Positions 1-30,786 of a DNA stretch of 64,000 nucleotides are shown here, in pieces. Within the stretch, counting starts at the first letter, position 1; each line of letters starts with the position of its first letter. Below the pieces are notes generated by a model. It searched no databases. It had not been told where the DNA came from and worked only from the letters and a program-made list of their open reading frames with translations. This stretch comes from Apostichopus japonicus (lineage: Eukaryota > Echinodermata > Holothuroidea > Aspidochirotida > Stichopodidae). Location of the stretch: positions 10,935,501 through 10,999,500 of the forward strand of contig NC_092568.1 in the NCBI RefSeq assembly GCF_037975245.1, given 5' to 3'. The position numbers and the translations under genes were made by a program.

Positions 1-3000
1 TGCCGTAACTTGATAACTCTCTTAAATAATGAATAAGGCAGAATTTTAGTCTTGATATTTTAAAGAAAAGAAAACAGACAACGTTGAGTCCATGCAATAT
101 GTTTCTGTAGCTATTCCAGTATTTTTCAAGATATGTTTCTTTAAAGATACTTATTTCTTGAATATTCGTTTAGGCCCACTTGATGGTGACGTCGGCTCCT
201 CACTGCAGTTCTTATAGTTAATGTTAATCCGTTGGTTTTGAGGTCAATCAGAATATGTACGTTAATCTTCATATAAGCAACAGAGTACCCTTGGATGGCA
301 TTCAACACCGTTTGTCCTTAATAAATTTGTAATAATTATAAACATGTCATTTGAGACCATATAATCTTAATTTCTCCCATTGAGTTGTGTAGTGCAACCG
401 AGGAACTAGTCTGATGAGCTGTGTACTAAACTAAAAGGTCCAGTCACTTTAACTAGTGAACCTCAACTGCATGTTTAAAGGGTCATTCCAAAAACAAACA
501 AAAAATAAGTAATTATGCTATAGGAATACAATCCTAGCTAGACGGAGAGCAGTGGTTTTTAACGGTCCACAGCATATCACAGTTAATTTTGTTCCTGAAG
601 TTATCAAAACATAATACGGGGTATTTTTTTGGTTAATCTCAAACAAAGTTCTTCAGAATCACTGTTTCCGAAACTACCTACTATCCGGTATGAGAATTTG
701 CTACAACACTGTTGCTTATAATGGGACCATATTGAAACTGGTATACTTTGGTTTTCTAGCAAAAGTGATATAGATTGAATTTATCTCATGGTCTTGCTGG
801 CTTGTATGTTTCTGGCACTGCAACGAATACAATGCTTGTTTTGGTGTAGGTAGTGTAAATCTTTGCCAACACATTTATGTCAAACAATGGGTTTAATTAA
901 GTTCCTGCAACCCTTGTGAACCGCATGACTGTTTGAATGTTTTGCTTGGCTTACCATAAATGGCCCACTACAATAAAATTTATTCCACCTTTAGCGTGAC
1001 AAGAAAAAAAAAACGGCTTTTAAAGAATTCGATGGCGCTAGTTTGAAAAAGGGTGTTTTTTTTAATATAAAATAATTATATGGCTCTTAAAGGCATCCGT
1101 AGAGTCACTTTTAGGAGAATAGCGCCTCATCAGGCCACGTATTCAGTGGACGGTGGCTGCAAGCATGCCGGTCGCAGAGATGTCACCACCTCTGGCCAAA
1201 GGCAAGGATTCACGCACGCCACCTAGTACGTTTCTGGTCGATTTGACCGACCCTCTGCGCATCCTCCCGGGTTCCTTTGCGACAACAAGGGAGACATGGT
1301 ACGGGATCCTAGGCCACAAAAAAGCACCATGCCACAGCCAGAGGTATTATCGCCAGAGGCCTGTCTTGAACCCTAGCCACGATTTACACGACCGACAAGG
1401 AATGAGTCTTTCGTCACCCTCTATAACATCGGCCACCACATCAGCTAGTAAATTATTTGGTTGAATTAATATATCAAGACTTCAGCATCGACTGCTGAAA
1501 AAGAAAAAGAATTTATAAACGTATATAATCGTTGATGGAGTCGACCTCAGTTCATCAGGTTACCAGTCCACTGCTCAACCCACAGAACCATTTGACGGGT
1601 TAACTTTCTAGTAGATTGGTATTGTTATTGGTATTATTGGTTGGATACAATCTATTGGTAACAGTGAACGACACTGCCTTCAACGAAATCTCTATTCATC
1701 ATATACTCTCATTAGAACAACGGATCTGAATATCTTTATTTACAAGAAGCTCACGCTTGTCTTTGTTTACATTGCAGCAAGCAGAAAGAATGTCGTTTCC
1801 TTCCAAGACGTAAATGTACAATAGGCTTATGCCCCAATACCATCGATGACTTCGAAGCAAGCAGTAAAAGACAAACGGATTCCATGAAATCTTCTTATTC
1901 ACAAAAGGCTGCTTAAGATAATGCTCGCAAGAAAGTTCTTGCTGTAAGTTGTGTCCTTTTACAACTATATTATATGTAGACGATCATGAACTGGAGTAAG
2001 CCTGAAATTTCAACAAACAATACATAAGTTCACATTTCAGTACCGTTTTGAATGAGGAAGGGACAATGCTTATTAAGTCAAACACGTTAACTACATGTGA
2101 CTAATCTTAGTTAGGGATCTGAATGGCTGGAAGTAGCACGGTTATTCGAAACCCGAAACAGGATTCATAGGGTTTTGAGTTTATGCAAGTAGATTTGGGA
2201 AACACGGGTATCGGGAATTTGTCAACTGCAAGACTTTGTTTAGTCCGCAATGATATGCTTATTGATCATTTGAAACTGCGGCATTTGCGTGGATAGATAC
2301 CCCCACACCCCTCTCCCGCCCCAAATGACTGTGTTCCACACGTATACAGAAGTGTGTATTTGGCTTAATACAAAACATTATATAAATATCAAATTTTGAT
2401 CTATTAGCAGCCAACTTGATCACGTCGTTTACAATTGTTTCATTTTGAAAGACTGAATAGTAATGTGGTTGGGACGGTGACGAGGACGGGGTTTGGATGT
2501 TTTTTATAGCTTTTATATGTGCAATATAAGTCAACACTCTGAAATGGTCGACTACATCAACAGCTATAATCACTCATATAAAACATAAGTTATAGGAGGC
2601 AATAGCATCCCTTTCATGGTCAAAACTACCCTCCCTTCACCGCCGCCCCTCCTTCCCATACCATTTGCCGGTACGTTACTGAACCATGAAGATTGTATAT
2701 TAGATCTCTATGAACATGAAATATTCAATTGCATAAGTTTCCGATGAACAGAATAAAGATAGTTTCCTCCTTCTTCGGCTGATTTGAAAAGAGGTATTTG
2801 AATCGCCTCTCATATAGAGTATGGGTTTGAAAATTAATCCAAAACGCATCCAGAACTCTGCTTAACTTTCACTTCATCACCGGACCAAAATTATTCATGC
2901 AACTTATTTATTCTTGAAAAAAACATCATGTTATAAAGCATTCTTTGAGCTGTTGTAAGTCTGAATCAAAAGGAAGGAATAAACCAATGAGAACATGTGA

Positions 3001-4427
3001 ACTATAGAAACATTCCTTACATTTCCTTGCAAGTCATTGGAGGATATAGAGATTACGTTGTTCCAAGAATAATACCCCATGAAATGTGAGGAATGCTAAA
3101 AGGGAAATCATTCTTGTAAGAAATTCCAACTGAAAATAAACACTCTATATGCAATCATAAAAGAGCTTAACATGCTGCTTGATTCTTTCTATGGATTTAA
3201 ACTTAACGACATTAGATCGAAAAAAAGTGAATAATACAACTGTGGCCCACCTCTTTTCAATCTTTCAATCGCATGAACTACGATTGGCAGAGGCTCACTA
3301 GTAGGGGATTCTCCCTATAGCAAGGATTCTCCCATTGTGCGAATGAGTGAGGGTTTAACTATAATGTACGTTGCCATGGTATTAGGAACTGGTATTACCA
3401 TTGGGTAACAAGCAAATGTGTCACGCTCACTCCAATGCATGATAAGCAATTATCGGCTTGTTATCAACTTGAATCGTACTATTGTTCCAAATTATTTGAC
3501 AAAGAAAAAGAGAATTCTTGTAGCTATAAGATTACAATTGAAATTTAACAGATGGTAGTATACTTGGCATATTTAAGACATGATCCCGCCAGAAAGAATT
3601 CAAATCACCGAAATATTTATCCTAACACACCGACACACACTCAGACAACACACGCTCACAAATTATTTGTGATAACGAATTTACGAATTTAATGGGGGTT
3701 TTTTTGTTTACTGTTTGAATGGGTAAATCTTTGATAATATTACCGTCTCGTTTCAATCTGCCCGACGTTTCACTGAGTGACGTCACGTATTGAATTGTTA
3801 TCAGGTACCTTATTTTTTTGAGTAACCGTTTTATGTGTTTCTGTCAGGATGTTTAGAATTCAACGCAAAAAAAAGCAGTTTTCACATTACCACGTGTTAT
3901 TGAACCATCTGGATAGAAATTTTACCACAAAATTTCACTTTCTGTCAAAGCCGACATAATTGTAGATAAACAAACTTTTATAATAAGAAAATTAGGTTTC
4001 AAACCTGGGCTTAATTTGATATAATTTCGTTACTTAACTAACCTGGCTGTACATTTCGAAGCGGTTATAGATAGATCATCTATAAAGGAGGTCGAGTCGA
4101 TCGTCTCCAAGTTATTTGCTAAAAAAAAAACATCTCAATAACATACCAAACGCTGAATAACAGTTGGGAGAGGTGAGATTGACAGACGTTCTCTAATATC
4201 TCCCCCCCCCCTCCCCGTCTCCTCTCTCTCTCTCTACCTCTCTCTCTCTCTGTATAACTATTCATGTCAGTAGGCAAAAAGTATGTCTTAAATGTGAACT
4301 AACGGAAATATGGTTGTTGTTGGTTTGTTGTTTTCTCTGAGATATAATGACAGCTTGTATCATTCTGGGCCCTTCTTCTGCAGAAAATTGCTCGTTTCTG
4401 AAATCAGACATGGATACAGGTACTAAG
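1..4427. other. No gene recognised; A/T-rich flank with one G/C-rich patch
   Basis: I find no exon that matches a family I know. The stretch at about 1110-1460 is clearly richer in G+C than its surroundings and carries a 103-codon open frame on the plus strand. That frame has low-complexity Pro/Ser/Thr composition and no recognisable domain, so the patch is more likely an old repeat than a gene. A C-run followed by CT-rich sequence lies at about 4200-4250. No tRNA, rRNA or splice-bounded coding segment was seen. Confidence 0.5.
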
Positions 4428-4937
4428 CAGGGGCGTCAATCCGATTTGAAACGTGGAGGGGGGGCGTAATCGGGGGGGGGAGTATTCCGGCCGTAAGTAC
4501 TATCTAAGCGGAGCGCCACCATCGGTTGGCGCGCAGCGTATACTACCAAGAAAATTTCAGATTTCAATACCTGCCAGATCGCTGGAGATGGCACTTGCCA
4601 GGCTGGATAGCAGCCATCTAGTTGCGTGATTTCGGGTGAAAATTACAAATTCGTCACTCAGGAATAAAGTTCATGCGACCTTCATGTTTGGTGGATTATT
4701 TCTTTTATTAGTGATTCCAATTGACATGAACATTAGAACGCAGTGCAAGTTGACAAATGATGCGGCGAACTGGGACCCCAGCCCCATTTTGCCATATGTT
4801 TCAGGATAGAATACCCCTCAATTGTTCGAACCCATGACAACTAACAATCTGTGAATAAATTTACTTCGAAGTGGGCACATTATATTGCACCAAGTCGGTC
4901 AAGGAATGACCCCAGGGCCTCAGATATAGGCCTATAG

Positions 4938-5257
4938 CAGGGGTGGGCTACCTTTTTGAATGCATGGGCCAGATTTTAGAAGCGAAAGATTGACAGGGCC
5001 GCACCTAACCAACGACCTGCTGTTGATTTCAAACCTTTGCTTGCGAGGACGTTCAATAAATAGGTGTGTGTACTAATCTGTATTCTTAAAAACATAATGT
5101 CAATACAGTCCAATTGATAATTAATGGTGATAATAGACCTACCTGACAGCATCATTAAGTGCAGATAAATTCTAGGCAGCTAGTTTGTTTTTTGTGATGA
5201 TGTAAAAAATCACTGGCGGGCCGCATGTGGCCCGCGGGCCGTAGTTGCCCACCCCTG
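4938..5257. mobile_element. hAT-type MITE, CAGGGGTGGGC ends, 8-bp TSD
   Basis: The element begins CAGGGGTGGGC and ends GCCCACCCCTG. It is flanked by GCCTATAG (4930-4937) and GCCTGTAG (5258-5265), an 8-bp target-site duplication with one mismatch. The inner right arm holds the GGGCCGC/GCGGGCC pattern common in Charlie-like hAT elements. At 320 bp with no long open frame it is non-autonomous. An 8-bp duplication and a CAG terminus are hallmarks of hAT. Confidence 0.85.
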
Positions 5258-5839
5258 GCCTGTAGGAACGATGTCCCAAAATGTTCCCGGGCATATAGGC
5301 GAAGGAAGCTATCCGCCGCGACTGCATGTGAGTTTCTCGACTTGCCGTCCTGGGAGCCGTACCACAAAATTGGTGCATTTCCTCATACGCCATTATTAAT
5401 AATTTAAATAACTAACTAATTAGGCACAGCCCAGATCCGAGTTCGTATAGTGAGCTTAGCGCAAATTTGGCCAAAAGTCGTCATACGCCAGCATGTTAAA
5501 CCACCAATGACTTTTAATACCACCCGTGACACACTTCCAACGGGACTGTGTCAGTTTAAATGTTTTGCTAGGTCTACGAGAATACATTTCTATGAAATTT
5601 GAAACAAGGATGGCAAGACAAACCACTTTACTTATGTTTTCAGGACCTCACACATGCGCATGTATCGTGAGACTTAGAATAGGTCCCATGTGAGTGGTGG
5701 CTAAAGTGATGAAGGCATCCAAATAAATCAGTGGTTGTTCGTTGGAGTACTCACGCAAGTTACATCGGTTGCTAGGTGGATCTGCATCTGGTAATCGGGT
5801 GAATTCTGGTCGGAGCGTACTATGTAACCACCGTGTACC

Positions 5840-6776
5840 CAGGAACGTAGCTAAGGCCTGATGATTGAGAAAGGGGGGGGGGCGTGTAGTGGCTGAAAAT
5901 CCAACGACAAAATGGGTTTTGAAGCCAGAAAATTCCGACTGCTGCTTTGTACCCCCCACCCCCCCACCCTCGCGCTACTCGTCTACGATACGGTCAGTGT
6001 CAGACACCCAATCTTTCGCGACTGCACTTTTGTTCCGAACTTTTTTTCGATACATTTTGTACTCACTGGCACTCATTTCACAAATTTATTAGCCCCCCCC
6101 CCACCCCAACCAAATATTTTTGTGAAATTTCGGGCAAAATGCTGATAATTTTTCAGGCACCTACTGAAAGAAAGATAATTTGCAATGTGTTTTTCAGTAG
6201 TTAAACTTATTATTACCATTAATATTGTAACGACTTCCAAATAACTCTAACCAATATGGAAGGGTAATAAGACGGAAATGGTTGTATGTTATTTGCATGC
6301 GATTTAAAAATCGATGCATGTCTATATGATATGCACATTAACATGTGGAAAGCGCGCGTAGCTTGCGAAAAATTTTGGTTATATTTTTCGGGCAAGTCGT
6401 TACAATCCCCCCCCCCCCCCCCAAGTCAAATTGGGCTCCTACGCCTATGACGGTAGTTCTACTAGGCATTTTTTGATTGGAGTAAACAAAATCATACGAA
6501 GTTTTGTACGGTGGAGTATAAGAATCGCGAGATACAATTTCTCAAAGTGGCAAGGAAAACGTGGTAAATATGACATATTCAAGGTAAATTTTGACCGAAA
6601 TTTTTCAATTTTTAGGTCATGCACAATCACAGGAATAAATGAATAGGCCTAGATAAACTAGAGTGCGACAGTCGGAAATTCCGACTATCGCACTCCAATT
6701 TTCCAACTATCGTCAGTTTTACTAAGTTTGGGGGTGAGACACCCCCACACCCACACCCCCTCTAGCGACGTCCCTG
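5840..6776. mobile_element. hAT-type non-autonomous element with perfect 8-bp TSD
   Basis: The ends are CAGGAACGTAGCTA at the left and its imperfect inverse TAGCGACGTCCCTG at the right. The flanks CGTGTACC (5832-5839 and 6777-6784) match perfectly. Within it lies a second repeat (about 6090-6449) ending GGCTCCTACGCCTATG, which belongs to the CATAGGCGTAGG family seen complete at 58980-59946. The element is therefore itself a target of insertion. Confidence 0.8.
6090..6449. mobile_element. CATAGGCG-family element fragment nested in a hAT element
   Basis: The stretch shares its interior (ACCAAATATTTTTGTGAAA, CACCTACTGAAAGAAA and GGGCAAGTCGTTACA motifs) and its right terminus GGCTCCTACGCCTATG with copies at 48184, 58980 and 61190. 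The left terminus is not clear after a C-rich run, so the left boundary is approximate. A perfect small palindrome-like segment (GCATGCGATTTAAAAATCG) lies near 6295. Confidence 0.55.
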
Positions 6777-7004
6777 CGTGTACCCAGTGTTCTCACTGTG
6801 GAGTAAACTCCGGTATCACTCAACAACAAGGTAACATGGGATGCGCTGCCACGGAATATGCTCCCTATTTCATTTCCCCAATATTAGGGAACGGGCACCG
6901 TCTTTGAAACACCATCTACAACTAAACAACAACTATGTACAAGCTTTGGCTCTAGCTATGAAGTGCTGTCTCTTATGATAATGACGGAGCGCACTATTTT
7001 TCTA

Positions 7005-7440
7005 CTGGAATCGCCCGAAGATGCGGCGTCTGTAATCCGAGGAACCAACGAACTTCTCTGTTAACTCCTCAGGCTTCAACTGGGCTAGACGTTCGCGGTG
7101 AATATGGCACACCATCACATAGTTCAGCCTCTGTTGAGTGATGGTGCTCCGTAGCCATGTTTTCAAACGCCTCAAAGCACTAAATTATCTCTCGGCTGGC
7201 GGAGGAGACGAGGAGGACACCAAGAGAGCTTCGACTTCACCAAACATAGCCCGTACCGCTGGATTCATCAACTTGAATATTTGTCTATACCCTTCAACCG
7301 ACGACGACTGGAACTGGCCTCGAAAGAAAGGCAGACTAAGCTTAAGATTGTCGGAGAGCTCAGGGTATCAACTCACGAGATTTGGGTGGAATTCTCCATT
7401 CAGCAACATTGAGTGATATTCGATGATATGAATCCTGAGA
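7005..7440 (-). pseudogene. hAT transposase C-terminal relic (ZMYM1/hAT dimerisation region)
   Basis: Read on the minus strand, about 7190 down to 7005 encodes a stretch starting FSALRRLKTWLRSTITQQRL and continuing through NYVMVCHIHRERL. This is the conserved C-terminal dimerisation block of hAT transposases and their domesticated ZMYM relatives. An in-frame TAA interrupts the frame just before FSALRR. Upstream sequence to about 7440 (FEVEAL-like acidic stretch, LLNGEF) also looks transposase-derived and has further breaks. Only about the last 140 codons survive, so the copy is dead. It sits near the right end of the composite element and supports the hAT assignment. Confidence 0.65.
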
Positions 7441-7918
7441 TGTGTAAGTCCTAACCAAATAGAGCCACATCATTACTCTTTTTCCAAATGTGTGTGTGTG
7501 TGGGGGGGGGGGGGGGGGGACATTTGATATTGTTTCCACCACCCATAGAAATGTGGGGGGGACGTGTCCCCCCGTCCCCCTGGATTGACGCCCATGTACC
7601 ACCCTAGGGAACTGGTCATGACTTCAATACTTTCGCCGAGTTGATAAAAACAGCAAATTGTATATCAGCAGCTGATATACTCAGTCCCTGCGTACTTATG
7701 TGAACATGCTTATATATAGGACGTATCATAACCTCGTGTTAATACACAACTGACGAAAGCGTAGGCAGTAAAAAGTAAATGGTGTGGGTGTTTGGTATTT
7801 TATACATAGTTGATAACTCCAGTGCATCGTATTTCCATACGATAGTAATATACTATGGTATTGCGGAGTAAATTTCAGCATGGGTTACATGCACAAGGGA
7901 TCGAACATTACTTACGGG

Positions 7919-8495
7919 CAGTGGCAGACTGGCCACACGGGCATTTGGGCAATGCCCGGTGGGCCGGTGGACTGGGGAGCCTGGTAAAAATTACAGCCCA
8001 TTTTCACAGTAGTTAACAGAATACAGACGGGTTGTGTAGAAATATATTTTTAACTGTGGGAATCAGCTCATGAAAAGAAGAACGTGCAATATTAGCAACC
8101 CGTCCGTGCTAATGGATTTTATTCAGGTTTTTTTCAATTTTTTTCAAGCATGTTGTCACAAAATGCTTGAAAAACTTAAATAAAATCCAGTCTAAAACAT
8201 ATATTTTTGTCTTTATTTGTTTACGTCTTATCTTTCCTCAGTTTAATCAAGTGTTGCTTCTGGAAAATTATTTTGTGTCATTTTTGAAGGATTATTGTAA
8301 CCTACAATATTGAGATATATAGCACCATTTTGCATCTTAAACTTCAAAAAACTTTCAATAGGGAGGGGAAAACCCCCTCCCCTTAGACCCCTCCCCCAGG
8401 ACGGCGATCACTATGTAAGTATAGCATATCAATGAATAATGCGCCGGTCTAGGTGGAAAATGCCCGGGCCGCTTTTAAGACCCAGTCCGCCCATG
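7919..8495. mobile_element. MITE with CAGTGGCAGACTGG / GGGCGGACTGG ends
   Basis: The left end reads CAGTGGCAGACTGGCC and the right end CCAGTCCGCCCATG is its imperfect inverse. The subterminal GGGCAATGCCCGGTGGGCCGG is mirrored by AATGCCCGGGCCGC on the right. The flanks do not match, so insertion is old or boundaries have shifted. The interior includes the GGGAGGGG...CCCCTCCCC block found in several other repeats of this window. Confidence 0.6.
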
Positions 8496-10781
8496 GTCAT
8501 AAGTGAAGAGAAATTCAATAAGGTTCAAGCAAAAAATTGTGGGTGTCCTGATATGATGGGATGCAAATAATAGGATTTAGTTCTACATCTGTTAGACCAC
8601 GAGAACGATTTCGAAGATATGGTGATGTGATAGAAAATTGAGTCAGTGATGTGTGACCGAGAAAGCATTTAACCTATGCCGGTAAATATATGTGTGTCTA
8701 CCAGTGTCTTGTTTTTGCTTCTTTTAATATTTAGAGTAAGTAAAACAAAAGACAATTGTTTTCTCCCGAACAAAGAGAATTATATAATTTCACTCTTATC
8801 TCTTTCCACTTTCAATTTTGTATACATATTACACACTTAGTTTCGATAACTGTTTGTCATGACGAACTTGTCAGGTAAAGTATAACCTTTATGACTGTAA
8901 TTAGCTGTATTACTCGTCAGGTACGTGAAATAGTGAATAAATTAAATGTCCCAATGCGTCTTCTTCTGGTTCAACGATAGTCAATACTCGCATTAAATTT
9001 GTGAACAATATGAAATATCATATTCATGTTAATAAAATAAGATTACACTGTACATGCAACATTATAAACCAAGACATATACGCAAACGCATGTTATTTCT
9101 AAAGATCTTACTGACTATTAAATGTTTCGCAGGTGTTTAGAAAAAAGCGAGTGTTTTGGTCAATAACCAACAAAAGAAAATAGATAAATAAATAAAAATA
9201 AAAGTACAAAGTGAAATAAGAACTAACATCGTCTAGTGTATTTCGGGGTTGTATATTCCATATATATGATGTGCTAGCATTGGGGTGAAGCATCCAAAGT
9301 TGTGACTCTAAGTTATTACTGACCACACACAGCCTAGATTTTGAGATAAAGAATATATTTCAACGTAGTACAGCACCCAGCTAAACATTCTTAATTTGCC
9401 TAATGACTATTTCCTATTACGTGTCAAAAAAGAATCTCTACGCACGAGCGTTGAGTGGCTTCTATATATAGATTAAGCCTGCTACACCATTTGGTAGAAG
9501 ATATGACATCATCTCATTAGCATAAAGACTAACACAAAAACCTATATGCTTGCATGGTCAACAGTAAATATACGCACAGTGTATTACGATGTATATTAGT
9601 TAAACTTATACCCTCTCCTTAGCAAGAATAGAAAATACAATAACCCAAGCTTTAATAACTAACATTCGGTTCTGGTAAGTTATAAAAAATGTCGACATTG
9701 CCGGGCTAATATTGCGTTGTTTAGGTGACCAATTACTACTGTGATGACGTGGCAAGGAGAGACCGAATAATATTGTCAGAAAAAATACCTTTTGCTTCCA
9801 TGTTAACTTTCGGTTCGATGTAATTACTGCATCAATTCCCACGTTCATATATTGTTATACTGTTTTAAGTGTGGGCGGTTATAAAATGTTCCTTTACAGC
9901 GATCTCATTTCACGCCCTAGTCGCATCTTTATATCTTCACACGGACATTACATAATTACAATACCAAACTTTAAGTATGATCATAATGTAAAAAAATTAA
10001 AATGCAGTTCATCCCTTTGCTTTTATGTAGACCAGCATTGCTGAAATTAATTTCTGTAATATTAACAAATCACATCTATAAAGTTTAACCTAACTTAAAA
10101 GCATCTCAAGTGTGACTCAATAATGTGTGGATTTCAACACCGTTTTTTATCTCACCAACACCAACTAACACTGAATTCTTCTTGACGGAGAAAAGGGATC
10201 GTTTTTCTACAATCGAAGCCTTGCGATGCCGCTTCATTATTTTACCCTCTGTCCTAAGTCTGTCTCTGTTCTCGCTACTTTTTCTTGGAACCTGGAAAAG
10301 CAACAGAGAACAGATATAGGAACAGAGAAAACGACAATATTAGACAAGAGGTATAAATCTCGCTTTGCATATAGGGTAAACTTTTTGGGGCGTATACCAG
10401 CAGTTGTTCACAAGACTACACCAACTAAACACAAATATATATCTGCAGTGCCTCTTCCAGAATTTCTCGGCAGGGGGAATGGGGGACAAGTATATAGGTA
10501 GATACCGAGATTAAAATCGAAATCGCGATGTATAAGAACATATCGGTACAAGACAAAAGATACTCGCGCCCGAATCGTGCCAAATTCTCCACTAATTATT
10601 TACTTCGTTTTGAGCAAATTATGTCTGCATAAAGTTCTTGGTTCCAAAAAATGCAGTAGATGGGATCCGGGCCCATGGGCACCGTCTCTGGATTCAACCC
10701 TGATCTGTATATTGAAAGGTAACTTATGACGGAGTCAGATATCAATGTTTTGGTTCAAGTTAGCCTTAATTCCACTAGTAA
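8496..10781. other. Intergenic, 3' flank of the peripherin-like gene
   Basis: I see no exon here. The minus-strand 3'UTR of the peripherin-like gene must extend into the upper part, but no AATAAA or ATTAAA on the minus strand stands out within about 500 bases of the stop codon. A minus-strand open frame of 65 codons near 10106-10303 is probably chance. Confidence 0.5.
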
Positions 10782-11681
10782 TCAAAACTTAAGTTTAAAC
10801 GATTTCCCAAAGCCCTTCTTTGGACCTTTCATAGATTTGAACCCTCTCGAAGCAGGCATTTTTCTCATAGCACTTCCACCTTTCATACGAGAGGATAGAC
10901 CTTTTCCAAATCCCTTCTTTTTACTCTTAAATTTCGAAATTGGACTTTTTGCTTTGGAAGACATCTTGCCAAACTTTCTTTTGGTACTACGTTTGAGTCC
11001 ACTTAATTTGGCGCTCGTACCTTTACCCAAACCCTTCTTAGCTTTCCCAAAAGGTGACCTCTTCCCACGACCTGACTTGCCTTTTAATGGACTCTTTGGC
11101 TTACTCGGGGACCGTTTCTTCATACTCTTTACTGTGGGTTTTTTCTTCGATGATTTAGGTGAAGACTTAGTGGATGATGACTTGGTCGGTGATTTCTTCG
11201 ACTTGGAACCTTCCTTGCCGATCTTTTTATCCTTCTTGTCTTTCTTTTTGACTGTTGATTGACGACCCCCGTCTTTACTTTTAGTAGATTTCTTGGAGGA
11301 GGACTTTTTCTTACCTTCTGGCATCTCATCTGGCAATCCATCCATTAGATCATCACCGTCGTCTTCTGGAAATTGATCAGACTCTCCGTTTGCTGGACGT
11401 TGACTACCACTTTGCATTAGAGGGGAGTTCTCGTAAGGTGGACCGGGAGTCTGCTGCGCAGTGGTTTTGTTCTCCTCTTCAAAGTCTTCGTCGTCGAAAG
11501 TTGAATCGTCATCAAAGTCTTCGTCACCGGCCACGATACCTTCGACATCTTTAAAGTCTTTATGAGCGGAAGTGTTACTACTTCGGAATAAGTATCCGAT
11601 GGTAGTGGCCTCTGAGTCTCCCAACTCTTCGGCCTCTACCATTGATGTTTGTAAGATGCGGAATCCCAGGAGGATGAACAT
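10782..11681 (-). CDS. Alternative last exon 3b (long charged tail) of the tetraspanin
   Basis: After a T-rich acceptor (TTTATTTTCTTTTAG|ATG) the frame encodes 299 residues. Residues 1-14 complete TM4 (MFILLGFRILQTSM). About 42-122 is acidic (e.g. DEDFDDDSTFDDEDFEEE). About 123-299 is extremely basic and rich in Lys, Ser, Gly and Pro. The basic part repeats KKGFGK/KKGLGK three times (exon residues 215, 255, 288) and has several KSPxK or RSPxK motifs like linker histone or protamine-like tails. This is known neither from the short tails of vertebrate peripherins nor from typical tetraspanins. The ATG at the exon start is coincidental with the splice site; the exon reads in phase from exon 2. 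The plus-strand frame over the same bases is its shadow. Confidence 0.75.
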   Translation of the reverse strand: MFILLGFRILQTSMVEAEELGDSEATTIGYLFRSSNTSAHKDFKDVEGIVAGDEDFDDDSTFDDEDFEEENKTTAQQTPGPPYENSPLMQSGSQRPANGESDQFPEDDGDDLMDGLPDEMPEGKKKSSSKKSTKSKDGGRQSTVKKKDKKDKKIGKEGSKSKKSPTKSSSTKSSPKSSKKKPTVKSMKKRSPSKPKSPLKGKSGRGKRSPFGKAKKGLGKGTSAKLSGLKRSTKRKFGKMSSKAKSPISKFKSKKKGFGKGLSSRMKGGSAMRKMPASRGFKSMKGPKKGFGKSFKLKF

Positions 11682-14600
11682 CTAAAAGAAAATAAACAGA
11701 TGTTCAAGTCCTGCAGCTGGTTTGGCATATTAGTCATACATGCTGCAGTCATGGCTATAAGTTGTTAATATCGTGATATTGCACGAACGGTTGGATACAT
11801 GAGGTTGATTCTACTGTAAAATATATCCCATCGTGGTGGCCTCGGGGTCATCAAATGTCTCGGCCTCTGACATCGATGTTTGCAGGATACGAAGCCCACA
11901 GAATAAGAGAATCTGTAAGGTACAAACAGATATGTTTCGCCCAATAAAGTTATAAGGGCTCAGGGGCGGATCCAGGATTTTGAGAAAGGGGGGGCCGACA
12001 TCCCGATTATAGCACTTTAGTGATCTGCGTCCTGGGGGAGGGGTCTAGGGGGAGGGGCCCCCTCCCCATTGGAAATTTTTGGTTAATTGTGAGTGCTTAG
12101 ATGCAAAATGGTGAAACATTTCGCCAAAAACTATAAAAACTAGAAACGTTGCAGACACGCTTTTTTGTGCACATATTTTGTCTCGATAGACACATATTTA
12201 AGAACGCTCAACAGTGCATGTACAATGGATACACTATTATTGCGTCGATTCGTTTTTTCTTTTGTGCGAAAATTATGACGCCAGATTCACCCCAAGAAAA
12301 AACATAAACAAGATATGTTCAATAAGATAATTATGATATACTTATTAATGAAAGGGGGGTGTAGGCGGTTTTACACTATCTAACGCAACGTAGTCGCCAA
12401 GAACCTTAAGTATTTTTAAGGGAGGGCCCGATAATAAGCGGAAACGAATCAACGAACCGAAAAAATATCGGAATTTGTGGACTATTTCTTGCTTCCTATT
12501 CAGGGGCGTAGCGAAGGGATTTTGTTGGGGGGGTGTGGAGAATTTGATTTGCCGACGGATCTGGAAGTGGTGACTGAAATGGGGGAGGGGTGTAAGGGGA
12601 GGGGGTGTCCCCCTCCCCTTTGGAAAATTTTTAGTTTTGAAACGTCCTTAGATGCAATCTGGTGTATATTTTAAGTCAAATTTGATTTGCCGACGGATCT
12701 GGAAGGGGTGACTGAAATGGGGGAGGGGTCTAAGGGGAGGGGGTGTCCCCCTCCCCTTTGGAAAATTTTTAGTTTTGAAACGTCCTTAGATGCAATCTGG
12801 TGTATATTTTAAGTCAAATTTGATTTGCCGACGGATCTGGAAGGGATGACTGAAATGGGGGAGGGGTCTAAGGGGAGGGGGTGTCCCCCTCCCCTTTGGA
12901 AAATTTTTAGTTTTGAAACGTCCTTAGATGCAATCTGGTGTATATTTTAAGTCAAATTTGATTTGCCGACGGATCTGGAAGGGATGACTGAAATGGGGGA
13001 GGGGTCTAAGGGGAGGGGGTGTCCCCCTCCCCTTTGGAAAATTTTTAGTTTTGAAACGTCCTTAGATGCAATCTGGTGCATATTTTAAGTCAAATTTGGC
13101 ACCGTAGAATTTCCATTTCGATATTATTTTTATGGCAGTCGGCAGAAGAAGAATTAATTGGGAACAATTATCGAACTGTGTTTTCTCTTTCACCGATCGT
13201 TGAAATAGTGAAACTTTGTGATGAAAATGTTCAGAAAACTTTCCGGTAATGAGAAATAACAACATTCATTGATATACAAGCGAGAAACGTTAAAAATTGT
13301 GTACAATTCGTGAGCGGTGTCCTTAAGTTTTCCACGGAGAACGAATGACATCTGCGATGACGTCATTCTGAACAGAGGATAATAACAACACGTTGTCACA
13401 CGATAGCACGACTCATGGGCTGCGGCCTATACGGAAGCCTTTAATTCCATTTCTTTCACTGAGTTGCCGGCGATTCTGGCACTCGTGAGCCTGGCTACAG
13501 TAGCTATACTGACGGCCGTGACATTATCAGTTATTTGCCGAGAGGTTTTTAACTTGCAGGCGTCGAGTGATTGGATTGGTGAATGAGTTTATCAGATGAA
13601 GAACTGGAAAATCGAAATAACCGATAAAGAAGCTCCCGTTCTCCTTTTCTCTATTCAGCTTTCCTTCTTTCTTCCCCTTCCGCTCTCTTCACCTTTTCTC
13701 CTTTTGCCGACAAACCCAAAATTTGCCGACAGCGACCAAATTATTATATACACCCCCACACCCCCCCCCCCCCGCTCTCTACGCCCCTGCACGCGGAATT
13801 ATCCAAACTGTTTCCAAAAGAACCGATTCTAGCCTATACAAAAGGGCCCAAAATCTCAAAGGTTTACTTGTTAACTCAAGGTTTCATACTAACGAAGAAT
13901 CAGCTGACTCTCAAGGTTCACACGAAGCTCTTTTAGATGCTCTTATAGCTGCACTATGAGTCCATAAAAACTCGTGCACAGAAAATAGATGCATTTTGAG
14001 AACGAGACGCCCAGGCCGAATATAAAATATTCAAAGGCTACTACTGATGAAGCTCCTCCTATAAAGTTTGAGAGCAGAAACCGTTTAGTTGGTCATAAGA
14101 ACCTACACTAGTCTCTCCTACTATTAACAGTACACTCAATTCACGTAATAGGTGCAATTATGTTCCACCACGAGGAGCATGCTATAAGTTCATGTTCCTC
14201 GGGCCCTCCCTTAAAAATACTTCAGGTTCTTGGCGACTACGTTGCGTTAGATAGTGTAAAACCGCCTATACCCCGTTTCATTCAGATAATTATGATATAC
14301 TTGCTAACTGTGCATTGATTTTCCCTGACAGTAATAGTCAGCACTATAGTACTGAGCCGTATCTAATTAATACGCGATGTCGCGTAGGCCTGGTAATTGC
14401 CTTAGTTTCAAATTTGGAATAAAAACGATCGCGTTTCAGGGAAGAGCAGCTGGATATATATTAGGCTTTTCTTTCACCAAGGTATGCCTATTAGGAATTT
14501 GAAGTACTCCCACATAAAAAAAAAACGCAACTGATTTCCAAAAAGGGGGGCCGGGGCCGGGTCGGCCCCCCCCCCCCTGGATCCGCCCCTGGGGCTTTTG

Positions 14601-17600
14601 GTTTGGAACAGTTTAAAAACGTTCTAATTTTTATAAATGAATATCCCAGTTAGTTTTTTTTTTGTGCGTTTTTTTTTTTGCAATGCACATTAACCTGATG
14701 CACTTTTGTTTTGATAACCGTTTGAACTGTAAACAGCAACGGACAAGTTAACAATTCCAAAATCGTGTGCAGAGTGGTTGTCCAGGAAACCGTTGCTATG
14801 GGATACCCTTCGTCAACCATATATAGCAATGTGTTGCAAAGTTAGCTGTGCATCTGAAACAACAATCTGTGGCATGGAACACATATCTGAGTATACCTTC
14901 TTATACCTTTTTATCTGAATATACCTGATTATATCTGATTATACCGAACACATATCTGATTATATCATATCTGATTATACCCTCAATTGTTGTGAAAAAG
15001 TATTGACTTACTAACAAGGGAACATCAACATATGGACATAACAAATATTCAAAACAAATGATGCTACCTATATAATCTTGTTTACATGTACGATTCGGGG
15101 ACTGAACCTTGTTATTTAACTTATTTAACTATAATGATGAGAACATATTCTTTATTCTTTCTATATTGTTGTTCCCGATTTGGACGAGATAATACTTGAA
15201 TATTGATCACACCAGAGGCGGAGCGTCCATACAGTCAGGGGGGCGATACCCCCCCCCCCCTGACGGACTCAAATGGACTGCTGGCGCCCTTTTCAGCTTT
15301 TTACCACTTTTTACTTATTCGCGATTATTTTTATTGCGCTCTCATCTACCTATTGACATTTGTCACATTTTGTTGGTGTAATTTTCTGACAAAATGCTCT
15401 AACAGCTATTTATTCTTCGTTTATCTGCAAATTAGCAAGGCCCGGAAAGGATCATTTCCGGCGATCTAGGGAGTATCTATACTCAAAAAATTTCTGTACG
15501 CTCCGCGCCAACCTGTGGTGGCGCTCCGCTTAGATAGTGTCGAAAGCGCCCCTACAGACCATTCTCGCCCCTGACCAATACCCCTAGCTCCGCCACTGGC
15601 TCACACTGTAGCAGTTACACACGGGAATCTGATTGCCAAACGATGTATTTGACACGCAAATTGTCAGTCTTTGATGTTATGGGACAAAATGACGGTTAAT
15701 TAATGTCTGGGATTTGCCAATGCTCACCTGAGTAAGGAATGCGATGAACACCAATGCACCGAGAAGTTGAAGACGTTTACTGAAGTATTCCATCAAGCTT
15801 TGCTTGCATCCCAGTGTGTGTAGTGTGATGCCGTCTGCGTGATTGTAGTTAAAATGGACGCTGTCGTCGTGGACATGATGATGAATACATGGACGATGGA
15901 TTCGAGGGTTACAACAACTAAACGGAACGTCGTCATTCAAGTAATGACCACTAGCCATCTTGCTGTAGGTGTGCAAAACAAAAGAGACAAATGGGTGTAA
16001 GGATTTTGAGGTCAATAGTTGTCTTTTTTTTTATTGGCGGGGTGGGGGGGGGGGGAACAATTGTGATACAGGTAGCATGGACACTGTGAAGTTCGGACAC
16101 CTGAGCCTTAAAACACCCCAAAACTTTATCTTATGGTATAAATCACCTGAAAATATACTTGATATGGTGGGGTCATATTGGAGAGAAAATAACTGTAGCT
16201 TCGTAGTTTTTCGTGAAATTGGCTCTTGCTGTAGGTTGTCATGGTGAAATCGTGTATTTCTTAGGGGTGTCCGAACTTCGCATTGTTCCGAACCTCGCAA
16301 TACTGACTATACCACATAAATTCCCATACATTTGAACAATGCTTGCCCATCCAAGTTTTGATTGTAATGTTAATACTGACTTCTTCAATAAGTTTATTTC
16401 GCAATATTTTCTTCTTATTTTATTAAAAGCAACACAGCAATATTTCAATCCATAACACCTATATATGTTATATTGGCTGCTCTGATGGGGGACTTAGTCC
16501 AAGATATTTTAGACCAATTCTAGAGATCGTAATGTAGGGTATGAACAAAGGGCGCAATCTTGCTTTATTTTATTCTATAAGGAACAAATGTAGACCTACC
16601 TTTTAATGAAGAACTGGGTATTTACGTTACAATCAAATGTAAAATATTATACAAGGGGAGTTTGTGCAGTATCATACCCCCCACCTCACTATAACATGAT
16701 GGTGCCTCATGCTGACGACGTAAACATCGACTTCCATAGAATGTAATGTCCCTCTTTTTTTGGTAAGAGATAAATAGTTTAATATCACGATCGACTCAAA
16801 TGCCTGCCATTGAACTTGTTAATAGAATATGTCAATTTACGAAGTCGCTATATAGTTGCGGACCTAAAATATTTTTCATCTGTAAAGAAATCTTAACAGT
16901 GTCATTTAAATTGCATCTTTCCTACCTCCCTCTCCCCCTCCTTCACTCATCCCTCCCCCCCCCCTCCCATCCCTCCAAAGGTAATGAGATCAGATTGATG
17001 TTGATATCTGGCGGTGCCATGTATTGATCACTGTAAAGAAATTGTTTCCCCCTCTTCTTTAACACAAGGATCACATGTGCCTTTGAGTATCTTTCATCAA
17101 TTGCTATAGGGGTAGCATAGGCCTACAGTACTAGCCTAACACATAGGCGTACGGGACCATTTCAGTTTGGGGGGGGGCAGAACTTTTTGTGCCCGAAAGT
17201 TCCCGTGACACTATCTAAGCGGAGCGCCACCATCAGTTGGCGCGTAGCGTACAAGAAAATTTTTGGCACACAATGCCTCTCAGATTGCCGGAAACGGCAC
17301 TTCTGAGGCCTTGCAAGTTGTATCTAAACATTCTTTACTTTATAATCTCACGTTTAGAAATTTACACTTGCCCAAAAATTTGGTAAATTAGAAGAAGAAA
17401 AAATGGTAGTATCACTTTGAAGGGGGAAAATGGGACAGTATATTTTTTAAGCTCCTATTTAGTTACCTTATTTATTATTTTAACACAGTACTCAGCTACC
17501 TCCAGAAAAACATACATTGTTCAACGACACGTAGGCGGGATGATGTCGCTGTGTCGGGTGAGACTGCAATTTGTCTCACAAAAAAGTATAAAATATAACA

Positions 17601-24648: not shown

Positions 24649-25668
24649 TTAATCCCACTTTTGAACCCTTTGTGATTCGGGTAAAATACCCCAGTTTGGA
24701 GAATGCTTGTCACTCGCAAGCCAATTGAAATCATCCACATCATCCCAGTTATTCCTATTTGGATCTAATCCGCTCTGTCTGTAATCCTCGCCCTTCGTCG
24801 CATAATCCCACTGATACGGAGCAAACAAGACCATGGTCGTGTCCTCGATGATCGCCCGACTGGTGACCTGGAGATAGAATTGAGTGTCCTTGGTGTGGTG
24901 AACCCGTAACTGCTGACAGGCTACCACGAATACGCAGCTTTCGCAGTTGTCTACGAATATCGAGCCGGGAACGGGCCCGCAGAATACCTTACAGTCTTTC
25001 AGGTTGTTGACGTGGACTGCACTCGGATATCCTTCGAGGGTCACCTTGCACGATTTGAGATTGGAGAGACTGACGTCCTGAAGCTTAATTTCTTCGCCTG
25101 CCATTCGCAGGCATTCCGAAGATCTGTCGGAAAACCCCTTTGAGTCTTGAACGAAGGCATTTTCTGGTTCTACTCCGGACTTTGCTCTTCCGTCCTCCTT
25201 GGGAGGTTTCTCCTCCACGGGTACTCCCTCGGATTCCTTCTTGCGAGATTTGAACGCAAACTTCTTCTTCGGGATCATCTCCTCTCGCTTTCGTTGAAGC
25301 GTCGAGAGCAGTTCGCTGGCCGACGACTGGGAGCGATTGATATCATAGGAAGGGAGGACAGCCGTATAATCTGCGATGAATTTTTGAAGTTTCTTCACCC
25401 TCATAATTAATGCATCGAACCTATCCGTCAGCTGAACCTTGGGGAGTTTTGCACCAGGTCTGCATAAATCTTCAAGACCAGTCTCTATCGATGATTTTTC
25501 AACTTGGAAGGTTTTGTAGAAGTAGTCGATGGATGTCTTCTTGGATTCATCGACATCTTGTTCCTCCCTCTTCTTTTCGATCTCAGCGATCCTTCCATCG
25601 TGCCGTTTCTGGAGCTTCTCTGTCATCCTGTCCTTACGTTCGCTCAAGTCTGATGTGTCCACTTCCAT
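24649..25668 (-). CDS. TBCC: Tubulin-folding cofactor C
   Basis: This 339-residue protein, in one coding exon, is the GTPase-activating cofactor that releases native alpha/beta-tubulin dimers from the cofactor D/E complex in the cytosol. I start it at the ATG at 25668 (MEVDTSDLSERK). An upstream in-frame TTG is not a metazoan start and lies across a likely splice site. The N-terminal third is a charged helical, spectrin-like region (about residues 10-130), followed by a Lys/Glu-rich linker. The C-terminal beta-helical TBCC/C-CAP domain covers about 190-335. It includes VACQQLRVHHTKDTQFYLQ with the conserved Arg of the QQLR motif, the catalytic arginine finger in human TBCC, then LQVTSRAIIED and the near-invariant NNWDDVDDFNWLA and SPNW blocks. 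Length matches vertebrate TBCC (about 346). Confidence 0.95.
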   Translation of the reverse strand: MEVDTSDLSERKDRMTEKLQKRHDGRIAEIEKKREEQDVDESKKTSIDYFYKTFQVEKSSIETGLEDLCRPGAKLPKVQLTDRFDALIMRVKKLQKFIADYTAVLPSYDINRSQSSASELLSTLQRKREEMIPKKKFAFKSRKKESEGVPVEEKPPKEDGRAKSGVEPENAFVQDSKGFSDRSSECLRMAGEEIKLQDVSLSNLKSCKVTLEGYPSAVHVNNLKDCKVFCGPVPGSIFVDNCESCVFVVACQQLRVHHTKDTQFYLQVTSRAIIEDTTMVLFAPYQWDYATKGEDYRQSGLDPNRNNWDDVDDFNWLASDKHSPNWGILPESQRVQKWD

Positions 25669-25673
25669 ACTGA

Positions 25674-27417
25674 CTGCCAATTGAAAGAGATGGAAGAGAT
25701 AACTTCAAATAAGTCATACAATGACTAAGTCTAGTTCTTTTCACAATTTTCTATTTTTCACCTTGAAACATGTACACCAATAGGGTCAGGTAACCCTAAC
25801 CCTGCTTGTTGCAAAGAGAAAACTTGAGTCAGCAAACCCAACATGCAGATCATCTATCGTTTTCATCATACTGTAGCTACATATCAATCACATCTTTTAG
25901 TAACCCTCAAGCTGTGGATAGAAGATAGAGTTAACAAAGAAAACCCATAAAGACTACATGTAGGAATTTTACAGGTAACAGGGTTGGATGCATTTACTTT
26001 AAAACTGAAAATAACCAGTTTATAAAGCACTCTCCTTCAAAATTTTGCAAACTGAAAGGAGACAAAACCCTACCTTTAGACTCCATACCCAAACATAGGA
26101 CTACCCTGATATTGTCCACTTCTTCTAACAATATCTTTCAAAGTTGACTGGTTTCATATGCAGTGGACCAACGACTTTCACCAGATCTGTAATATCAAGG
26201 CCATTCTTATCTTATTTCCCTTATGTTTTAAATAAGGTATTGAACATTGTTTTCATCCTGCCAAAGTCAGGTTTATACTCAGCCTTAGCTAGTGCCCATG
26301 GCTGACAAAAACGTCAGTTTTCCTGTTCCCAGGTTTTGAGCTACATGTACAGTAGCAGCTCCATGCCATAAATTCTATATTCAAGCATAATGTTAAACTG
26401 AGACACAAATCCAACCATCATCATTGGGCTATATGATAGTGATAACTGGGCATGAAAAACTTCCCAAACAGCTAGGAAATATCTTCTGCCGATTGGGAGA
26501 ATGTCTTGAGCAAGGTGAAAGACTTGAGCGATGACCAACATGTGCTTCATTTTTGTTTTCATTTTGCGGTAATGCCATGGATTTTGCAAATGCCAGAATC
26601 TTTCATGTTTAAAATACTTAACATGGCCGAACAATTGGCAATGTTTTCAGTGTCAACACTGCTCTTGTAATCTTGTTCATCTTGAAAATTTGAAAAGAAA
26701 CACACAGAGAGAGAAAACAGGTTTCAAATCCTTGTGACAATATGACATCATCAATTCATATGACGATTCTTCACAATTTTTACACTGTTAGGATATCTCC
26801 AAAATGAAGTAAGACTTTTCTTATCAACTTGTGGGAGTTGCTCACAAAGTCTTATAATCATTTCAGCTAAAAACGATAACTGGGCTGTCACCATAGAAAT
26901 TGATAAGGAATTTCTATGGTTATCACTCACTCACGTCAATAATTTTTTGACGAAAGGGATTCCCCATTTCTCTGCCATTGTCCATGGAAAGTTCACAACA
27001 GCTATTATCACCATCACCATTTCACATTTGTCGTTCTTACATAATCTGATAGTTGTTTTCAAATGGATTATATTAGCAAAGAAGTTAGGAAATTAATGCG
27101 AATCAATGCTTTCTATAAAAGTGTATATATAATAATGATATAGTCTTTAAGTTGTTAACACTAACAGGTAAAACGTATGCTAAGCTTGTATGTCGTTGGT
27201 TATGCCGATAAGATTAAGAGAAAAACCAAATAGCAAACACTGCATTAACATCTAACACACATACAGAAGTATATATAATAGTAGTTTTGCGAAAAGCATG
27301 TAACGTGACCGTTACAGCGTTCAGGCCCTGGTCAGTACTACACATTAGGCTATGTCAAATTAATTAATTGTGCACTTAACACTGCTTCTACATTTTCGAC
27401 ACTATTTTATGTCTTAC
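25674..27417 (-). other. Likely 5'UTR intron of the cofactor C gene
   Basis: On the minus strand ATTGCAG|GTAAGAC at 27418/27417 is a strong donor. A pyrimidine-rich TCTCTTCCATCTCTTTC stretch leads to GGCAG|TCAGTATGG, an acceptor five bases before the start codon. If used, the first exon is non-coding and ends at 27418, placing the promoter somewhere above that. This is inferred from splice signals only. The interval holds no other gene I can see. A 12-bp perfect stem (ACCATAGAAATT/AATTTCTATGGT, 7-base loop) lies at about 26892-26922. Confidence 0.5.
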
Positions 27418-27418
27418 C

Positions 27419-28807
27419 TGCAATCTAGAGCTACGTCTTTGTTGAATATATCTCAAAATTTGTATAATATCTTGTTCACGACAGTTCGTTGAAGCATTTG
27501 CTTAGCAACTGACACAGTGTCATAAATGACGTACGGATTTCTTTCCCAGGTGGTACTGTAGTACTATACTATTGTTGATTTGCCGTAAGATAGTCTTCCA
27601 AAGCTACTGTACCACTGCATTTGTCATCGAAGAGTCCAGTGTATTTCGCACGTTGTAAATGGTGTTAGTTTGAATCGAGGTATGAGCGAGATAACGATTC
27701 CTTATCTAACCTTAATAAATAACCTACGGCAAGTTTCGTAAAACAAAGTCGAAACACCCATGGTGTTGTCAACTGACTCCACACTTCAGTTATGGGTCAG
27801 TATTTATACTGTAAAGACAGAGACACGGTTACATTATAAGTGCTGGTGGGAGCTATACTTAGGCCTAAAATTTATGATAGCATTGGGGTCCGAATTCCGA
27901 CCATGTTGTGGTAGTTTACTGTAATAACGTGAGAAATTTCATGCTAGAAAGGCTGCTTTTAATTGAGTAGAGGAAGCACTTATCGTATTCTACTTTCCTG
28001 AGTATCACACAGACTGACTTTACACTGTCAAGTGTCAGTGCATGCCACTTTAGCCTGCCTAAGGCCTAACATTAGGACTCTATATTGCTTACAGTAAGTC
28101 AATCAGTGAGCAGAAATGATAATTAGATAATAATTTAATGGTATAAAATGTGTTGCAAGTTTTGGCTCATTTATTCTAGGACCATTCTTGGATATTCATA
28201 TCCTTGAACTTGTGGAAAAGTCTCACCCCCACCCCCCTCCCTTGATAGTGAATACTTGTATGTAGTACTTAATACATACAGTACTATCTTCTGTTCAATT
28301 CACAATTGCAATGTGATAATAAGAAACCTATCATTAACATGTACCTGTACTATTTTACATACACATGTCTCAGCTATATCCGAAAATGCAAAAACTGTTC
28401 TGTAGTGTATTAGATAACAGTAAAGTTGTTCCATATTCATTCTAAAATTTCGAATTACATATTTTACAGTCGATTTATATAACCTTTTCAAATAGCTATA
28501 TTAGAAAATGCAAAAAAAAAAAAGACAAAAAAAATGAACTTTTGTGTATTGGATAAAGGTAAAGATGTTTCATATTTATTCTAAAATGGCTCATTACATT
28601 TTTCATTTTAACAGTCAATATTGAATGTTAACACAATGATGAAAAATGTAATGAGCAATATATAACCTCTTCAGATAGCTATATCAGAAAATGAAAGAAA
28701 AAGAAAAGAAAACTGTACTGTTGAATATTGGATAAAAGATAAAAATTGTTAAGTATTTATTCTATATTTGCTCATTACATTTTTCAGTCAATGTAGCCCT
28801 GTCAGAT
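27419..28807. other. Divergent spacer between cofactor C and sulfatase genes
   Basis: The two genes are head to head. From about 28380 to 28800 an A/T-rich block is repeated roughly three times (TATTCTAAAA-t-gCTCATTACATTTTTCA, TAGCTATATcAGAAAATG). TGAAAAATGTAATGAGC is an inverse of the same motif. TTACATTTTTCAG at 28785-28797 resembles a splice acceptor 10 bases before the sulfatase ATG, so a 5'UTR intron is possible there too. No TATA box can be assigned. Confidence 0.4.
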
Positions 28808-29072
28808 ATGATCATCAAGTTCACCTTCACGGTAGTAATACTTGCTTTGTCGCAAGTGCCGTTTTGTCTGATGCTGCCCAGGGATCCTCTGGACAAACCA
28901 AACATTATCATCCTAGTAGCAGACGACATGGGATATGGGGACCTCTCCAGCTATGGACATCCAACCCAAGAATCTGGTCCTATCGACAGAATGGCCTTGG
29001 AAGGGATTAGGTTCACACAGTGGTATAGTCCTGAATCAGTTTGCACTCCGAGCAGAGGGGCTACCCTTACAG
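28808..29072 (+). CDS. Sulfatase exon 1 (signal peptide and active-site Cys)
   Basis: Encodes residues 1-88 plus one base, from the ATG to [10 protein letters not shown]. The donor is G|GTGCAT. The ATG sits directly before a hydrophobic signal peptide and there is no earlier in-frame ATG. A (CACG/CATA)-rich tract follows in the intron. Confidence 0.9.
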
Positions 29073-30786
29073 GTGCATACATACATAATGTACATTCATA
29101 CGTACGAACAGATATACACGCACGCACGCACAAACTTACATGTATTCATTGTATTAATTTTGATATTTAAAGGGTGTGAAGACTCGCGCACAAAGAAACT
29201 TCTCATGCCGGTAATCTGACCTAGTTTCGAATGAGGTGTAATAGACACCACCATCAATCCCAGAAAATACACACACAGCTTGCTACCGTTAGTAACTAGA
29301 CACGATAGTGTACAGTCAATACATACAGCTACGGTCAATACCCACAACACTGTGTACATAGCATCGATGGACATCTCAGGTCTAGATGAAAGATTACAAG
29401 GTTTCACGTTTCATTAATGTCTGCATTTTGTAGCAACAAGAAGAAAACTTCACTTGCAAGCAACGTACGGAAAGTAAACTTTTTCAGAACGCAGCACACG
29501 GTTTGGGGCGAGTCTTCAATGCCTTTAAGTTGTTGTTAGTATATGCTTCCTATGCTGTATGTAACATTCCCTCCACTCGTTTGCACTTTAGTCCTGACTG
29601 AATGTATCATCAATGTCAATGTTGCAATTTTAACACATTACATGGGATCTGTTTCTTTGGAAGTACATGTAACAATCAAAACTGTTCTTTTTCAATGCAT
29701 ATACATTCAGGAAAAATAGTCAGGAAATTTTTAGATATTTGAAGTCAAAGTCTAGTAGGAAAGTGCATAAGATTCTCATATGAAACACAGCCATTAATTT
29801 TAGAGCATATTTAGCAAAGAGAGGAACAACAATTGTTAGAAGAAGATGCAGTTCTTGACCCTGTCTATCTCTCCTACCCACCCCACCCCTTCCTTACCCC
29901 ACACAGACACACATCTCACCACCACTTCTCCTTTGTAATGCTGCTAATGATACCTTTTATGTTAATCTCTGCTTATAATTTTTTTTATTATAATTTTTAA
30001 AATTGGATGGAGTTGTTAAGTTATGTTACCATCAACTTACCTTAATTTCCCTTCTCTGCAGGTAGACTTCCTGTTAGGGTCGGCTTGTATGGCCCATATG
30101 AACGAGTTTTTATCCCTCATATGCCAACTGGTTTGCCAAAGAATGAAATCACCATAGCTGAAGCATTGAAGGATGTGGGCTACGCTACTGGGATGAATGG
30201 AAAGTGGCATCTTGGTATTAAAAAATAGTTTTCTCTTTTCAATTTTAATAGCAGCTGCCTGTTTGTGAGGTTTTTTTCCATATTGAAATTACACAGTCAA
30301 ATTTTTGTGACAGGATTTGTTGTCTACTTTACAGCAATAAAGACAATTCCTGTGTGATTAAAAGTAATATTGCAATCTTGTTTCAGCACAAACAGAGATA
30401 TATAGTTTTTATAGAATAACTCTGCCTTAATTATGAAACAGCTTGGTTTGTCACGAACAGCTCTGGTCACCATGGCATAGCTAGGTGATTCTTTGTTTCA
30501 CAGGGAAATTTGGACTGCTAATTTAAGAAATGACTGAAATAAAATTTGTACTGTAGGTCATCAGGATTTTAGTGTTCAAGAAGTTTTCAAGAGTAAACTT
30601 TCCAAGAGGTTCTGAAACTCCACATTATTTCTCAAATATTGGAAATAATGTTTTTAATTTAAACCATTTAAATATATCTCTGTTAGGAGTAAAGCGGCCT
30701 TGAAATTTGGACGTGAAGGATCATTATTTGACACCTATCTGGGGATAACACTGATATAACCTGTTTATCATAAACCATGTTCTATG

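Follow-up and report, generated by a model that had tools for sequence, protein, structure and literature searches.

The tail and the core of the tetraspanin PRPH2 are reported to do different work. According to excerpts of two studies in mouse rods, the PRPH2 tail holds membrane at the cilium and suppresses ectosomes, whereas the core builds the rims, and a ROM1 bearing the PRPH2 tail still formed rims but not orderly disc stacks (PMC10665016, PMC7140794). An excerpt of PMC9645710 places amphipathic helices in the tails of both proteins, at residues 312-321 of PRPH2 and 315-322 of ROM1. Orthologs of RDS/peripherin are reported in invertebrate deuterostomes (PMC2965184, in part), and the introns of the RDS/ROM genes have been described as one of nine ancient phase-0 introns (intron 6) together with a phase-1/2 intron (4d) (PMC2650405, in part). 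Human PRPH2 fills one row of the isoform table of PMC6773723. Alternative gene endings are known from Drosophila pip, PGRP-LC and CG42235, which have tandem duplicated, mutually exclusive 3' regions, and competing RNA structures are described at Drosophila 3' variable regions (PMC9013439, excerpt).

Here we describe a gene, located within a stretch of DNA of 64,000 nucleotides (the window), whose last coding segment is present in two tandem versions, 3a and 3b (Table 1). We propose, with a probability of about two in three, that the head of the last exon of an RDS/peripherin-lineage gene underwent an old tandem duplication, that both copies are functional and that a choice between two 3' splice sites switches the tail. 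Among the matches listed, the open-access literature contained no description of this gene or of a duplicated RDS/peripherin last exon; automatic genome annotation may already list both isoforms.

Table 1. Features of the gene and of its second intron, in positions of the window.
Feature	Positions (strand)	Length and phase	Signals or sequence	Content
Exon 1	18998-18433 (-)	566 nt, ends in phase 2	donor AAG/GTAAGC (AAGGTAAGC)	open frame from ATG
Exon 2	15962-15728 (-)	235 nt, phase 2 to 0	acceptor CTACAG; donor CAG/GTGAGC (CAGGTGAGC)	
Exon 3a, coding part	11912-11811 (-)	33 codons + TAG	acceptor TTACAG/ATT	remainder of helix 4, short end
Exon 3b	11681-10782 (-)	299 codons + TGA	acceptor TTTTAG/ATG	remainder of helix 4, then 266-residue acidic-then-basic tail
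3a acceptor tract	11913-11936 (-)		AACATATCTGTTTGTACCTTACAG	
Spacer, 3a stop to 3b	11810-11682 (-)	129 nt		predicted 3' UTR in the short mRNA
Imperfect AT-rich tandem array	14877-14985 (-)			in intron 2; its RNA could pair with the 3a acceptor tract

Exon 1 encodes the start codon, helices 1-3 and the initial part of the large loop, as judged from the Pfam Tetraspanin and PRPH2 matches, and exon 2, by its match to PRPH2, encodes the remaining large loop with its cysteines (CC, C, C) and the first part of helix 4. An earlier note, made from the letters of this DNA, had described exons 3a and 3b and their joins to exon 2, and its coordinates, frames and splice signals were reproduced. Its count of 18 identities among the first 30 residues of 3a and 3b is correct (18 of 33 over the whole of 3a), 3a does end at 33 codons and the "about 270 more" residues assigned to 3b are 266. 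As it had also stated, both copies finish helix 4 in phase with exon 2, and both align to helix 4 and the proximal tail of PRPH2. The short and the long form that it predicted are likewise borne out at the level of reading frames, the exon 2 joins to 3a and 3b being in phase and open, to give 300 and 566 residues, respectively. The starts of 3a and 3b are 231 nt apart, in frame with one another. Two in-frame stops (that of 3a included) lie between these starts and a third sits at the 3b acceptor, which rules out retention of the whole 3a-through-3b stretch as a single protein.

The predicted protein belongs with PRPH2. Pfam Tetraspanin (PF00335, cut-off 32.1 bits) matches the long form at 98.4 bits and the short form at 101 bits. 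Among solved structures, where four sequences in total were found at E up to 0.001 and the ranking is by bit score, the best match is PRPH2 in 7ZW1 (E 7.2e-61, 209.6 bits for residues 1-310 of the long form; E 9.9e-61, 209.0 bits for the short form), followed by ROM1 at 119.9 bits and by the far weaker CD53 (29.2 bits) and tetraspanin-7. The loop cysteines at positions 160, 161, 205, 206, 214 and 241 align with C165, C166, C213, C214, C222 and C250 of PRPH2. Intron 1 splits codon 189 after its second base, and residue 189 aligns with 7ZW1 chain residue 201, which is PRPH2 residue 194 after subtraction of an offset of 7 that was verified by hand on C165/C166 and at position 150, where the construct carries a serine; intron 2 comes directly after codon 267, which aligns with PRPH2 residue 276. 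The introns of human PRPH2 lie after c.581, the second base of codon 194, and after c.828, the end of codon 276, as read from the splice variants c.581+1 and c.828+5 in an excerpt of PMC12470102. By this alignment, both introns are at the homologous codon and in the same phase as those of human PRPH2, and we infer that the phase-2 and phase-0 introns correspond to 4d and 6, respectively. The peripherin-like identity proposed before is thus borne out, as PRPH2 and ROM1 stand well above the other tetraspanins of solved structure and the introns and the six loop cysteines agree. The gene would be an RDS/peripherin-lineage tetraspanin, probably of an invertebrate; the earlier note implicitly points to an echinoderm. 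No relatives were confirmed in viral_contigs or genome_contigs, as expected for an animal gene.

The gene shares with vertebrate PRPH2 the fold, the six structural loop cysteines, the positions and phases of both introns and the tail motifs LQTS and G(W/Y)L(L/F), and differs from it in having two alternative last coding segments and in lacking an equivalent of C150. The 3b segment has GYLF, as ROM1 does; unlike here, where both tails come from one gene, vertebrate ROM1 is a gene of its own. C150 of PRPH2 and C153 of ROM1 are the free loop cysteine for covalent higher-order complexes, and C150 links PRPH2 dimers. No equivalent of either was found in the window protein, in which the corresponding loop segment is gapped and no cysteine occurs between residues 119 and 160. 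The fold, the six cysteines and the introns agree with the description "disc-rim-type" given earlier; as the intermolecular cysteine is absent, the term is too strong, and vertebrate-style covalent rim chains would not be predicted. The protein may act in shaping other membranes, ciliary or microvillar.

That 3a and 3b are copies of one another is clear from their sequences. A tblastn search of the window with the 3a peptide returned 3a itself and 3b (E 1e-9), with the next match at E 0.69, by which a chance resemblance is rejected. Of the 99 aligned bases, 64 are identical and 35 differ, 10, 5 and 20 of them at codon positions 1, 2 and 3, respectively, an excess at third positions with p 0.003. 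By the NG86 method dN is 0.32 and dS 1.74 (dN/dS about 0.18) and by maximum likelihood dN is 0.32 and dS 3.8, while two further methods returned no value. This identity, combined with near-saturated synonymous change, rejects a recent haplotype or assembly duplicate. An origin of 3a from a second tandem tetraspanin gene was also considered; the window contains no other relative of exon 1 or 2 at E <3. The duplicated part appears confined to the head of the exon. Common ancestry of the tails past codon 33 is not significant (1942 of 2000 and 1388 of 2000 shuffles were equally good), 2190 of 5000 shuffles were as good as the 27 nt of 3a and 3b at the codon-33 boundary, and common ancestry of the acceptors (AACATATCTGTTT and AACATCTGTTT) is not significant either (325 of 2000 and 662 of 2000 shuffles).

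We simulated the duplication with 3b constrained throughout, in 4000 runs at each of seven divergences, scoring each run for a joint pattern: no stop, 18 or more residues kept and changes at 18 or more third positions. The pattern appeared in at most 0.525% of runs when 3a was neutral throughout, as compared to up to 52% with 3a constrained; indels were left out, a setup that favours the neutral model. In a simpler simulation requiring 61-67 of the 99 bases to be identical, the corresponding values were 0.2-1.1% at those four of six divergences that retained enough such runs (154 to 10736). As a neutral 3a rarely reproduces the pattern, 3a appears to have been under amino-acid selection for most of its life, a signal that rests on 33 codons of one genome. 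Judged from these codons, 3a is a sequence long maintained as protein-coding, and the tandem duplication of the helix-4 exon claimed earlier is real, the copies being compatible in frame and splicing and 3a showing the marks of prolonged purifying selection.

Selection for most of its history would also be expected had 3a been retired recently, coding for a long time and no longer being spliced in. When 3a was neutral for half its life the joint pattern appeared in up to 2.9% of runs, and shorter neutral spans would fit better; a single genome was seen, and upstream of the 3a acceptor sit short stretches that recur elsewhere in intron 2, of which 11954-11976 is the closest. Yet 3a shows no stop, frameshift or loss of its splice site, and its acceptor score equals that of 3b. 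We consider recent retirement unlikely, while allowing it more room than any other rival.

Scored with approximate frequencies, the acceptors of 3a, 3b and exon 2 reach 4.02, 4.03 and 1.68, respectively. Among the 315 AG sites in 15727-10800, the acceptors of 3a and 3b rank 16 and 15; 14 sites outscore both, 12 of which fall within 12031-13005, a stretch rich in repeats. Ten poly(A) hexamers were tried and none occurs within 11810-11682, which speaks against a separate 3' end for 3a, though a site lacking such a hexamer may exist. The interval 11912-11670 contains no plausible donor, the best scoring 0.45 (at 11739) versus 6.91 and 7.75 for the donors of the gene. Splicing of 3a as an internal exon to 3b was rejected, since this best donor is poor and lies past the 3a stop. 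Below 3b, AATAAA first occurs at 8217, about 2.6 kb beyond the 3b stop, and nearer to 3b there are only the variant hexamers AATATA (10713) and AGTAAA (10604). Since the interval from 3a to 3b offers neither any of the ten poly(A) hexamers nor a good donor, the simpler and probable reading of the switch is a choice between 3' splice sites within one terminal exon, 3b serving as 3' UTR of the short mRNA. Of the mutually exclusive terminal exons proposed before, the two alternative endings stand, whereas their being separate exons is not supported.

Separate terminal exons, each with a poly(A) site of its own, do have a precedent in human capping protein beta, for which homologous 3' terminal exons and multiple poly(A) sites are described in an excerpt of PMC3228551; given the lack of hexamers between 3a and 3b, we regard such an arrangement here as highly improbable. 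The preferred reading, one terminal exon with two acceptors, resembles the Drosophila pip, PGRP-LC and CG42235 genes in that alternative last segments are joined to an upstream exon. It differs from them in that only the head of the exon is duplicated, that the second copy would also serve as 3' UTR and that the forms differ greatly in tail length.

We propose an ancient tandem duplication of the last-exon head, comprising the remainder of helix 4 and the proximal tail, after which both copies kept their function. The exon 2 donor (15728) would then pick between two 3' splice sites of similar strength, separated by 231 nt, choice of 11681 yielding the 566-residue long form and choice of 11912 the 300-residue short form, whose mRNA would retain 3b as 3' UTR and share the same 3' end. 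The stop of 3a would lie in the last exon, with no exon junction downstream. It is conceivable that splicing to 3a serves instead to switch the gene off, yielding a message that carries a very long 3' UTR and is degraded, and thereby tunes the amount of the long protein. All 1,029 nt from the 3a stop to the 3b end would be 3' UTR, and alternative splicing has been suggested, in an excerpt of PMC4722987, to keep cone PRPH2 protein low. A pure switch, in contrast, needs no selection on the amino acids of 3a, and we hold this explanation to be very unlikely.

Under the proposed 3' splice-site choice, the part that is switched would be the tail. The short form terminates at the equivalent of PRPH2 residue 309 (the alignment pairs its residue 299 with PRPH2 308), just before the position of the 312-321 helix. 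The long form, of which 310 residues were given, aligns to PRPH2 only through residue 304. Of the 266 residues of the 3b tail, the first 92 include 28 D/E and 6 K/R and the next 174 include 65 K/R and 4 D/E; the tail has five KSP/RSP and four KKGLGK-like motifs and matches no Pfam family at E up to 0.001. By the composition of the window, an open frame this long would arise by chance with a probability of about 1e-8; as the opposite strand at 3b carries a 179-codon open frame (10723-11262), the length of the 3b frame is weaker evidence than it appears. The large charged tail that the long form adds could bind membranes or cytoskeleton. Since the loop is common to the two forms, mixed complexes should be possible. 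By analogy with the PRPH2 tail and core, subunits with and without the long tail could divide labour between them, and the retention of membrane at the cilium ascribed to the PRPH2 tail (PMC10665016, excerpt) is the function that the short form, perhaps comparable in this to ROM1, would lack. If true, the gene would illustrate how a split into tailed and tail-less subunits can arise without a second gene, outside the vertebrate PRPH2/ROM1 pair, and would provide a natural tail swap for learning which tail segments are important in photoreceptors of non-vertebrates or in other cells with cilia. The reading predicts two junctions and two proteins.

Intron 2 offers a weak hint of how the ratio of the two forms might be set. 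The 3a acceptor 25-mer pairs with the AT-rich array at -22.8 kcal/mol in two scan windows, as compared to -14.4 kcal/mol for the best pairing of the 3b acceptor within the intron, and 2 of 100 shuffled 3a tracts paired as strongly. The strongest of 70 random intron-2 25-mers reached -27.5 and their 10th percentile was -20.7. The fairest control took 480 25-mers of the window with similar G+C and paired each with the 3.8 kb upstream of it: 8 equalled the 3a acceptor in strength at the best site, 1 at the second and 97 at the third. As a further control, the acceptor of exon 2 was scanned over the sequence upstream of it and reached -22.8 and -22.7, an equal energy that weakens the lead. Against the array alone, which was selected after the fact, pairing just as strong was seen for 4 of 9109 25-mers on the transcript strand (one overlaps the 3a acceptor) and for 4 of 9136 on the other strand. 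The array is thus a weak lead as a possible masking element for the 3a acceptor. The fuller idea, that one invertebrate gene covers the PRPH2/ROM1 split with a tailed subunit that retains membrane and a core-only subunit, both from tandem copies of an exon head, while the array hides the 3a site and so sets their ratio, strikes us as a long shot.

Intron 2 also contains a 138-bp minisatellite (12403-13230); pieces related to it, at 12033-12113, come within some 120 nt of the 3a acceptor on its upstream side. A 76-nt inverted repeat (12356-12431 and 14199-14274; 97% complementary, 1,767 nt apart) is possibly a mobile element or a large pre-mRNA hairpin. Elsewhere in the window, a single open frame at 24649-25704 (-) encodes tubulin-binding cofactor C (Pfam TBCC and TBCC_N), and frames at 28736-29170 and 33818-34537 (+) correspond to the beginning and the end, respectively, of a sulfatase (Pfam Sulfatase; Sulfatase_C) and are probably exons of one arylsulfatase-type gene. 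Two overlapping long frames at 40723-41813 (-) consist of a short tandem repeat (NMSLFSMLSTH... and CYQHIICHCSV...).
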